From positions 1 to 42,343 of IMG/VR virus record IMGVR_UViG_3300044731_000784: 42,343 nt of DNA, one strand, 5' to 3'. Positions 29,409 to 32,712 of the stretch are shown piece after piece. Position 1 is the stretch's first letter, and each line of letters opens with the position of its first letter. This stretch comes from a virus. Under the pieces are notes generated by a model. It saw nothing but the letters and a program-made list of their open reading frames with translations, ran no database searches and was not told the DNA's origin. The position numbers were made by a program, and so were the translations under genes.

Positions 29409-29588
29409 ATGGAAAAAGAACTTAAAGAACTTTTAAAACTCAAAGAAAACGTAGTGAGGTGGAATATGTGCGCTGAACTCGATGAAAGGCTAGGAGTAGA
29501 CCCAACTAAATCAAATGAAAGTGCATTGTTTTACGAGCAGGAATTGAATAGTAAATTGAAAAAGATTATTGAAACTTATGGGAAATAA
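29409..29588 (+). CDS. Small hypothetical protein ending in the first attC-like site
   Basis: 59 residues, helical and acidic/basic (MEKELKELLKLKENVVRWNM). The TAA stop is part of the ATAAC box that begins the first attC-like hairpin. It could be the last ordinary phage gene before the cassette-like array, or itself a cassette gene; no start boundary matching its end box was found upstream. Confidence 0.6.
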   Translation: MEKELKELLKLKENVVRWNMCAELDERLGVDPTKSNESALFYEQELNSKLKKIIETYGK

Positions 29589-29712
29589 CGTTTCCACGCT
29601 TGGCGAAGAAGCGGACTTGAAAGCACATACTTTCAGTTTAGTAAAAAAGCCAATAGGAAGCACGAATGTTCAATTTAGCACTAAAACCGCTTTTTTGCCA
29701 AGCGTGTGTTAT
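29585..29712 (+). mobile_element. attC-like recombination hairpin A
   Basis: Order: ATAAC (29585-29589), five unpaired bases, arm CACGCTTGGCGAAGAAGCGG (29595-29614), 72-base loop, arm CCGCTTTTTTGCCAAGCGTG (29687-29706), one base, GTTAT (29708-29712). The arms pair over 20 positions, 18 exact and two G-T. The layout (outer R-type boxes AAC/GTT, unequal spacers, long inner arms, variable loop) is that of an integron attC site. The inner strings GCTTGGCGAAG and TTTTGCCAA recur in site B. Confidence 0.66.
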
Positions 29713-29755
29713 AACCAGTGCTTTTTGCGAATTATAAACTTAAAAAATAAACACA

Positions 29756-30040
29756 ATGTCAAAATTAAACAGAGAATTTGATTACAAAGATTACAAATTC
29801 AACACATCAGTTGAGTTAAACACCAAAGTCGAAAAAAGACTAAATGGTAAAAGGTTGCACACAATTATAACTAATTGTATGGGTGGCAACAATTACTACC
29901 AAAAAGACGAAATAGAAACTTTCCAAATTGAGGAATATGTTGAAAAACACAAACAGTTAGCAATTGACTACATAGACAAATTGACCTATAAGCCACAAAG
30001 TTTTGAAGAACAATTATTGTCTGGACTTGGGTTCTCGTAG
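29756..30040 (+). CDS. Hypothetical protein in a cassette-like unit
   Basis: 94 residues: REFDYKDYKFNTSVELNTKV...RLNGKRLHTIITNCMGGNNYY, then a helical end with VEKHKQLAIDYIDKL and a final LLSGLGFS. The pattern resembles small proteins found in Bacteroidota phages, function unknown. It is the only gene between attC-like sites A and B, starts 48 bases after the left boundary and stops next to the right box, as in a one-gene integron cassette. Confidence 0.68.
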   Translation: MSKLNREFDYKDYKFNTSVELNTKVEKRLNGKRLHTIITNCMGGNNYYQKDEIETFQIEEYVEKHKQLAIDYIDKLTYKPQSFEEQLLSGLGFS

Positions 30041-30177
30041 CATTGGTTATAACGCCTACGGCTTGGCGAAGTGGGGGAATTTAACCCACAAAAGCCGATT
30101 AGAATTACTAATGTTTAATAACAGATAAAAGATGATAGAAAGCAGTCAGCCCCCATTTTGCCAAACCGATGTTACCA
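30040..30177 (+). mobile_element. attC-like recombination hairpin B
   Basis: Order: GCATTGGTTATAAC (30040-30053), five unpaired bases, arm CGGCTTGGCGAAGTGGGGG (30059-30077), 72-base loop, arm CCCCCATTTTGCCAAACCG (30150-30168), AT, GTTACCA (30171-30177). The arms match at 16 of 19 positions, two of the others being G-T. Its left box is the reverse complement (13 of 14) of GTTATAACCAGTGC at 29708-29721, the start of the same unit, exactly as expected for an integron cassette whose attC was split on insertion. Confidence 0.68.
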
Positions 30178-30833
30178 GCAGTACGGTTAAATTAAAGGTA
30201 CTAAATCTTTATGCCGGTATCGGTGGCAATAGAAAACTTTGGGAAGATGTAGAAGTAACAGCCGTTGAATATAACGAAGCTATTGCAACTACTTATCAAA
30301 AATTCCACCCAAATGACAAAGTAGTAGTAGGTGATGCACACCAATATTTACTTGACCATTACGAAGAATTTGATTTTATATGGGCTTCACCGCCTTGCCC
30401 TACACATAGCAAAATATCAATAAACTTTGCTAATGCAGAAGGCGAAAGAAGAAGAAAGCCAAAATATCCTGATATGAAATTGTATCAAGAAATAATCTTT
30501 TTAGATGCTTTTTTTAAAGGCAAATGGGTAGTTGAAAATGTAACGCCTTACTATGAGCCATTGATACCTGCAAAGAAAGTAGGTAGGCATTTATTTTGGT
30601 CAAATTTCAATATTGGTAGCGTTGCACATAAAATGAGTGATAAGATTTTAAGAGGTGAGCAAAGTGAAAAGTATGCAATAAAAGGATTTGACTTATCAAA
30701 CGAAAAAGGGTTTAGAAAAGACCAGGTTATTAATAACTGTGTACTTCCAGAAACAGGGCTTTATATTTTGGATTGTGCAAGGGAAATAATAAGAAAGTCA
30801 AGTAATAGTCAGCCGTCATTGTTTGATGTCTGA
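30132..30833 (+). CDS. C5-cytosine methyltransferase-like protein in a cassette-like unit
   Basis: 233 residues. Motif I is VLNLYAGIGGN (23-33), motif IV WASPPCPTHS with the Cys at 89, motif VI VVENV (133-137); RRRKP and VGRHLFWSNF stand where motif VIII is expected, as in a divergent small C5-MTase group. The first 20 residues (MIESSQPPFCQTDVTSSTVK) are encoded by the right arm of attC-like site B, so either the ATG at 30132 is a by-product of cassette insertion or this fusion is the natural start. No other ATG lies before motif I. It would modify cytosine in phage or host DNA. Confidence 0.8.
   Translation: MIESSQPPFCQTDVTSSTVKLKVLNLYAGIGGNRKLWEDVEVTAVEYNEAIATTYQKFHPNDKVVVGDAHQYLLDHYEEFDFIWASPPCPTHSKISINFANAEGERRRKPKYPDMKLYQEIIFLDAFFKGKWVVENVTPYYEPLIPAKKVGRHLFWSNFNIGSVAHKMSDKILRGEQSEKYAIKGFDLSNEKGFRKDQVINNCVLPETGLYILDCAREIIRKSSNSQPSLFDV
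30171..30184. repeat. Left boundary repeat of the methyltransferase unit
   Basis: GTTACCAGCAGTAC is the reverse complement, at 13 of 14 positions, of GTATTGCTGGTAAC at 30836-30849. Its first bases are the R-type box of hairpin B. Confidence 0.68.
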
Positions 30834-30835
30834 TA

Positions 30836-30849
30836 GTATTGCTGGTAAC
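30836..30849. repeat. Right boundary repeat of the methyltransferase unit
   Basis: GTATTGCTGGTAAC closes the unit three bases after the methyltransferase stop codon. It is followed by TAGTAGATTG and no hairpin arms, so the expected third attC-like structure is missing or deleted. Confidence 0.65.
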
Positions 30850-30940
30850 TAGTAGATTGTAGAAATTAATTGTACAATAAAACATTAATTATCAATGCAA
30901 ATTTATACAAAATTTCTATGGTTTTATAAAACAATATTTA

Positions 30941-31761: not shown

Positions 31762-32044
31762 TAGCTGTGGTAAATCATTAAGAGAGCAAATGAAAGGATG
31801 TAATAAAATTACTTGTTATAGACAGTTTTTAAATAAACAAGAAACACTTGAAGAAGTTGCTGAGAGATTATATCCTTTTATAGATGAACTACATTTAAAA
31901 AGAGCTTTCAAGCATGGTGCTAAATGGCAACAAGAAAATATCAGCAACTCAATAGAACAAGTAATTAAGGAAATCTGCAAAGACAATACTCATTTGCTAG
32001 ACACTCCAGAGATACAAGAAATAATTAAATATTTTAAAAAATAA
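31739..32044 (+). CDS. Small phage protein with N-terminal CxxC and AERLYP...GAKWQQE pattern
   Basis: 101 residues. CNSCGKSLREQMKGCNKITC (8-27) has four Cys and may bind zinc. The middle ETLEEVAERLYP...RAFKHGAKWQQE is a widespread pattern in phage proteins of Bacteroidota, function unknown. The stop overlaps the next start by one base (TAATG). Confidence 0.62.
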   Translation: MIEQEICNSCGKSLREQMKGCNKITCYRQFLNKQETLEEVAERLYPFIDELHLKRAFKHGAKWQQENISNSIEQVIKEICKDNTHLLDTPEIQEIIKYFKK

Positions 32045-32712
32045 TGGAAACAAAAGAAATATTTGAATATTATGATATGTTTGATGAAAATATTAATTTA
32101 TTAAGAAATAAAATAGATAATTTAGTACAACAAAGAATAGATTTTACTAGAGAAAATTCAAAGCATATAAAGAAAATATTCCCAATTAAAAATAAAATAT
32201 ATGAAATAATAGACATAAATACATTTAGAACTTATGGATATGATTTTACTGATGAAAAATATTATTTTAAAGTTATAAGCAATATTTTAGACCCTATAAG
32301 ACAATTTAATCGTTATGATTGTAAATATCCTATAGTTAAAGGGGATATTTTAGATATAAATCTTAATAAAGTTTATTATTCAGATATGAAAATTGATATA
32401 AATAATTTAAAAGAAATAACAAAAGAAAATTCTCCAGATAAATTTATAAATTCTTTTACTTATGTATATGTTTTAATAGATAAAAATACTAGATATTATA
32501 AAATAGGTAGGTCAAAAAATCCATTAAGAAGAGAAAAAACATTGCAATCTGAAAAACCAACTATTGAAATGATATATAGTTATGATGCAAGAATTAAAGA
32601 TGAAAAAGTACTACATGATTATTTTAAATCAAAAAGAGTTCGTGGAGAATGGTTTGATTTAAGTGGCAGTGATTTACAATATATAAAAGAATATTTTAAT
32701 AAAACAAACTAA
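32044..32712 (+). CDS. T5orf172/GIY-YIG superfamily nuclease-like protein
   Basis: 222 residues. The N-terminal 130 residues are helical and not recognised. The C-terminal part is a T5orf172 (Mug113-like) domain: YVYVLIDKNTRYYKIGRSKN (140-159) gives the YVYV...YKIG pair equivalent to GIY-YIG, then RREKTL, a Glu in DEKVLHDYFKSKR and GEWFDL. The key residues are present. It might cut or nick DNA during recombination, defend against other phages or act as a homing enzyme. The gene is more AT-rich than its neighbours. Confidence 0.75.
   Translation: METKEIFEYYDMFDENINLLRNKIDNLVQQRIDFTRENSKHIKKIFPIKNKIYEIIDINTFRTYGYDFTDEKYYFKVISNILDPIRQFNRYDCKYPIVKGDILDINLNKVYYSDMKIDINNLKEITKENSPDKFINSFTYVYVLIDKNTRYYKIGRSKNPLRREKTLQSEKPTIEMIYSYDARIKDEKVLHDYFKSKRVRGEWFDLSGSDLQYIKEYFNKTN

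Follow-up and report, generated by a model that had tools for sequence, protein, structure and literature searches.

The integron integrase IntI has an extra domain, I2, which is thought to be essential for integrons. How I2 could have been selected before attC sites existed, or attC sites before I2, is a question raised by Escudero et al. in 2016 (PMC4792948), and almost no integrons were reported in Bacteroidetes with IntegronFinder 2.0 (PMC9024848). Using IntegronFinder and HattCI, Qi et al. (2023, PMC9892861) described 21 phages that have attC clusters but no integrase, and noted divergent directions in phage P12002L. In the same study IntI1 recombined the bottom, and not the top, strand of P12002L_attC2, a site which may differ from the ones that match the pairing rule given below. 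Also, the resistance gene aph(3')-IVb was found to enter Riemerella anatipestifer by transformation without homology, together with exactly 27 bp of 5' and 140 bp of 3' flanking sequence (2026, PMC13148043); its authors compared the 3' flank with attC, left the mechanism open and identified no recombinase.

Here we analyse two units with complementary ends in a 42,343 bp IMG/VR virus record (the window, meaning this whole stretch), in which terminase, methyltransferase and replication genes are present. The two units are very probably mobile cassettes of a Bacteroidota integron-type system, carried by a phage without an integrase. This reading draws on cassettes composed of a hairpin, a gene and complementary ends, on attI-like array ends, on linkage to a recombinase, on exchange at TAAC and on the Riemerella insertion, which matches a predicted cassette.

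Organization of the two units in the window

The features of the array are as follows (a slash within a motif marks the cut).

29409..29588, plus strand: phage gene, 59 aa, ending in a TAA stop codon that forms the left array boundary (TAA/C)
29589..30052, minus strand: cassette 1, putative mobile unit (hairpin A and unit 1), cut at TAA/C, which is G/TT on the minus strand
29590..29707, plus strand: hairpin A, attC-like, 118 nt, DNA fold z = -4.5, with a left spacer of 5 nt, a stem of CACGCTTGGCG... and ...GCCAAGCGTG, and a right spacer of 1 nt
29708..30053, plus strand: unit 1, complementary ends, start GTTATAACCAGTGC, end GCATTGGTTATAAC
29756..30040, plus strand: gene of unit 1, 94 aa, without Pfam or PHROGs match
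30053..30848, minus strand: cassette 2, putative mobile unit (hairpin B and unit 2), on the same basis as cassette 1
30054..30170, plus strand: hairpin B, attC-like, 117 nt, stem CGG-CTTGGCGAAGTGGGGG with CCCCCATTTTGCCAAACCG, z only -1.5 alone
30132..30833, plus strand: gene of unit 2, C5 DNA methyltransferase, 233 aa (PF00145, 4.7e-9; phrog_363)
30171..30849, plus strand: unit 2, complementary ends, start GTTACCAGCAGTAC, end GTATTGCTGGTAAC
30850..30873, no strand assigned: simple attI-like site, no hairpin, closing the array (TAAC/TAGTAGATTGTAGAAATTAATTGT), by attI motif score

The boundaries of the two mobile units are set by analogy with the D15/D35 and Riemerella insertions discussed below. 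As the preliminary description had it, the ends of each unit are complementary over 14 positions save one, a G-T pair that falls at the same place in both and that we locate at position 11 (G in the start, T in the end). Hairpins of 117–118 nt precede each unit and form part of the element, 118 nt being the mode of hairpin length across the whole cassette family. The first ATG of the methyltransferase lies within hairpin B (30132–30170), so that in unit 2 the gene and the site overlap.

Counting loose 13/14 pairs within 4 kb, both readings included, gave 6 in the window, whereas 60 dinucleotide shuffles averaged 1.5 and reached 6 at most. Two pairs in the window have the exact form, with 13 matches and a lone G-T at position 11; 300 shuffles yielded 6 such pairs, never two per shuffle. 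Since loose pairs are not rare in this AT-rich window, it is the survey that carries weight. An exact-pattern search for an empty site of the window phage gave no match, and no relatives were found via the window gene at 32044–32712.

The pairing rule across the family

The survey was run on viral contigs and genome contigs using the hairpin left arm TAACG-N-GCTTGGCGAAG as query, a pattern that favours one type of hairpin, and the named genomes among the matches listed are mostly Bacteroidota. The form GTTA-N6-G-T-NN with its complement accounts for 257 non-overlapping cassettes in 115 loci among the matches listed. More generally, a cassette starts with GTT(A/G)-N6-G-T-NN and ends with its complement, having G·T at the eleventh pair and a hairpin between neighbours, with AAC and GTT boxes present around the hairpin. 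Clearly, the long complementarity is seen in other copies, the point on which the preliminary description had made its proposal depend: with GTTG included, 211 viral and 175 chromosomal cassettes obey the rule among the matches listed. The GTTG/CAAC form occurs in more than 30 chromosomal cassettes, in contig L420 and in the Polaribacter phage P12002L of Qi et al., and as GTTG pairs with CAAC the fourth base covaries. Thus GTTA, which had been taken as kept, is replaced in part of the family, and CAGTRC, likewise taken as kept, is merely a common sequence and not fixed. The proposed covariation of the inner bases does hold, yet it extends over six bases and not four, plus three after the wobble. 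A pyrimidine (T or C) occupies position 5 of the start in 148 of 257 cassettes among the matches listed, outside GTTRRRY. Very short units and hairpins with the common loop TCGTTTTAATG were observed in L420 (6857–6885), L092 and L107, one unit being gene-free at about 29 nt.

When the eleventh position was left free, G/A was found in 265 of 522 cases and the mirror reading in 242 of 522, among the matches listed. Because a rule-based search itself selects for pairing, we have also carried out a blind detection of sites that used the hairpin and TAAC/GTTA only. Under these conditions a cassette's own ends pair at positions 5–10 in 56–78%, as compared to 28–64% with shuffled partners, G·T is present at position 11 in 79%, the pairing ends after position 15, and neighbours across a hairpin pair far less than own ends. 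The hallmarks of the family are the fixed G-T and the pairs beyond position 11.

These observations bear on whether the hairpins act in transcription termination or as RNA elements, the complementarity of the ends being a by-product. The hairpins do sit between genes, but they have no Rfam match even at E 1, and the pairing joins the two ends of one unit across hundreds of bases, neighbouring units pairing far more weakly; as the gain of whole cassettes at TAAC (see below) also contradicts it, we give this explanation a negligible probability.

Array ends and gene polarity

Array ends were defined as those without a following G. On chromosomes, the ends that have no hairpin share a common, attI-like motif, and this site is found some 100 bp beyond the 3' end of the gene for an IntI-related, I2-less recombinase. 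Viral array ends score far above background with this chromosomal motif (p 4e-14), and the window array end at 30850 falls within the top 0.3% of background. In one viral contig (L091) a nearly identical attI-like sequence recurs at three array ends (5720, 7618 and 8337, minus strand), as if this phage had kept several landing sites.

When the G·T is used to orient the site, the cassette genes of 85 of 86 viral loci are directed toward attI and those of 72 of 74 chromosomal loci away from it, with one tie (Fisher p 5e-42; both counts among the matches listed). Viral loci not previously used gave 20 to 0 toward attI, and in both the viral and the chromosomal sets the hairpin arms and the attI-like ends agree on site orientation. 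The few exceptions (L150, L232, L049) may be phage contigs among the genomes or host contigs among the viruses. In the window and in Flavobacterium phages the array is co-directional behind a phage gene whose stop TAA is the junction. On the simplest reading, transcription would reach chromosomal cassettes from attI, as it does in known integrons, and phage arrays from the phage genes at their other end; the opposite polarity points to two pools shaped by the source of transcription.

The associated recombinase

A search with the IntI model detected tyrosine recombinases in 26 of 26 host genomes; their match to IntI is split in two by a stretch that they lack, and the TIGR02249 (IntI) cut-off was exceeded in none of the 26. 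In nearly all array recombinases the spacing from KDR to HxLRH is 61–62 residues, versus 103 in IntI and 69 in Xer, and a stretch of this length indicates that the I2 domain is absent. Many of the recombinases carry an N-terminal extension of about 70–90 residues (as at L281, 5874–6150), for which a Pfam search returned no family, and some open frames reach 450–600 aa.

Arrays that obey the rule are present at 34 of 64 loci around the best recombinases, the strict rule leaving about half of the loci without an array; 18 of the 34 come from 40 loci sampled by recombinase alone. Cassettes were found within 13 kb at none of 16 XerC/D loci of the same genomes, and the constant G·T rule at none of 20 canonical IntI loci. 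These counts strengthen the initial suggestion of a distinct site type, possibly tied to a Bacteroidota recombinase. Among the 31 loci with downstream cassettes, the first cassette is oriented identically in all 31 and lies at most 250 bp from the 3' end of the recombinase gene in 17, mostly at 48–127 bp. From this position we infer that the recombinase acts on the cassette sites. Phylogenetically, array recombinases and IntI form one group separate from the Bacteroidota XerC/D (100/100). The large tree suggests that IntI is nested in the Bacteroidota recombinases (97/94), the AU test on a smaller set giving p 0.37, and we make no claim as to whether IntI is nested in or sister to the array recombinases.

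Host XerC/XerD could alternatively recombine the sites as dif-like sites, the IntI-like recombinase being a bystander. The motif of the attI-like end suggests a similarity to a Xer half site, and XerCD does recombine folded single strands, as in phage CTX (PMC4792948). Nevertheless, the contrast between 0/16 XerC/D loci and 34/64 IntI-like loci, the near-constant distance of the array from the IntI-like gene in many loci and the separate clade formed by the Xer genes make this account improbable. Hairpin transposition of the IS200/IS605 type was dropped, as the array-linked gene appears to encode a tyrosine recombinase.

Of the 296 genomes sampled across the phylum, 95 encode a close relative of the recombinase, as do 72 of 150 Flavobacterium genomes; relatives are also present in 83 of 148 genomes in the family of Planobacterium. 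The complete UKL13-3 genome has 30 IntI-like matches, among them three near-identical array recombinases, and a Chryseobacterium plasmid (L419, 8004–12264) carries a recombinase and three cassettes, being a plasmid-borne integron of the Bacteroidota type.

Cassette gain and exchange

Comparison of near-identical phages evidences moves of whole cassettes with a crossover at G/TT, the breakpoints falling in TAAC(GT). Over 5.7 kb, Flavobacterium phages FPSV-D15 and FPSV-D35 show 100% identity, the one difference being a 390 bp cassette that D35 has at TAACGT, where the array meets attI. Phages 6H and 2A have the same attI end as D15 and D35 (TAACGTATAGATTTC) and other cassettes. Likewise, in relatives of the window (93–97%) both flanks are conserved, GGGAAATAAC on the left and the sequence starting with AAC-TAGTAGATTG on the right, and the cassettes between them differ: L420, L421 and L422 retain ...ACTTATGGGAAATAAC at the left boundary and then carry other cassettes, and the right flank that follows the array end in the window is also found in L420 and L421, behind different cassettes.

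The published insertion in Riemerella provides a further case, on plasmid pRCAD0416RA-1. Its ends are G/TTGGTGGC and CCG/TTATGC, so that, allowing for a repeat of one base, the inserted stretch coincides exactly with the cassette expected from the rule.

Exchange of this kind might also be expected if the units were ordinary phage accessory genes swapped by homologous recombination between similar hairpins. In fact, hairpins are alike between cassettes (82–96% between copies in phages 6H and D15), and homologous exchange could reshuffle them. However, it leaves unexplained the complementary ends with a constant G-T, the attI-like ends and the linkage to a recombinase; moreover, the D35 insertion lies exactly at TAAC and the Riemerella cassette was inserted without flanking homology. 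We thus regard homologous exchange as a highly improbable origin and retain site-specific recombination of mobile cassettes.

The wobble and strand choice

In a circular cassette the ends would come together to fold attC, formed by an arm of 14–15 bp, an unpaired 5/1 nt spacer and the hairpin, on the strand that corresponds to the window plus strand. In the circle, the attC arm contains either G·T or A·C, depending on the strand. Using DNA energy parameters, the arm is predicted to be more stable on the window plus strand in 277 of 277 cassettes among the matches listed (median -1.1 kcal/mol), and an in silico change of G to A at position 11 abolishes this bias. The whole site is predicted to be more stable on the same strand in 95% of the matches listed, and the circular form to be favoured over the array form, the median gain in stability being 8.5 kcal/mol; these energies are expressed as medians and fractions only. 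We hypothesize that the wobble selects the strand: the constant G-T would mark the strand to be folded, the other one having an A-C mismatch. The folded attC would then recombine with a double-stranded attI at G/TT, and in the window phage a host recombinase would act in trans on the cassettes.

Taken in full, we propose a natural integron system in which an I2-less recombinase would act on folded attC with the constant G-T as strand mark, canonical IntI would have arisen within or beside this group by gaining I2, and Bacteroidota phages would keep a gene-reversed pool of their own, exchanged in trans by the host recombinase. To this combined proposal we assign even chances.

Distribution and significance

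The genes tet(X2), ere(D), aadS, tet(X), lnu(I) and aph(3')-IVb each lie alone in a Bacteroidota-type cassette on plasmids. The resistance cassettes are located as follows, on plasmids of Bacteroides, Riemerella and Myroides.

L005, 1652–5522: resistance cassettes
L473, 1089–17365: resistance cassettes
L007, 2652–3859: resistance cassettes

The system to which the two swappable phage cassettes very probably belong is thus also present on resistance plasmids, which bears on the surveillance of resistance. The cassette system is undescribed in the open-licence literature searched, and apparently a widespread integron-like system of Bacteroidota has gone without description; given that recombinase relatives are present in about a third of the phylum genomes sampled and yet few integrons have been reported, a large pool of cassettes has been missed. 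If our reading is correct, the cassette system of an I2-less relative of IntI would answer the problem of the origin of I2 and attC, and would make it testable.

Comparison with known systems

XerC/XerD and dif have in common with the present system the tyrosine recombinase family and an attI-like end that resembles a half site, but the Xer recombinases form a separate clade (100/100) and cassettes are absent near their genes (0/16 loci). The attC clusters of Qi et al. are similar in that they are phage-borne cassettes that include methyltransferases, whereas their study named no Bacteroidota recombinase, pairing rule or systematic opposite polarity. The aph(3')-IVb insertion of Riemerella corresponds to one Bacteroidota-type cassette, cut at G/TT.

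The canonical integron also consists of tandem single-gene cassettes with a hairpin site between AAC and GTT boxes, has an attI that adjoins the recombinase gene and inserts at G/TT. Its cassette ends are complementary as well, over 10–12 bp: class 1 cassettes commonly pair to about 12 bases (GTTAGGCATCAC on both sides; GTTAGACATCAT) and in other IntI loci the complementarity is 10–12, so that the idea that canonical complementarity stops at the 7-base R box was mistaken. A search with strict GTTRRRY boxes and stems detected almost no canonical attC in 20 IntI loci, and consequently this comparison rests on class 1 arrays and generic pairing. The two systems differ in four respects. The Bacteroidota recombinase is without the I2 insertion and falls below the IntI cut-off; the Bacteroidota-type cassettes have a fixed G-T at position 11; their R box lies outside GTTRRRY in over half of the cases among the matches listed; and their attI faces the 3' end of the recombinase gene nearly always.
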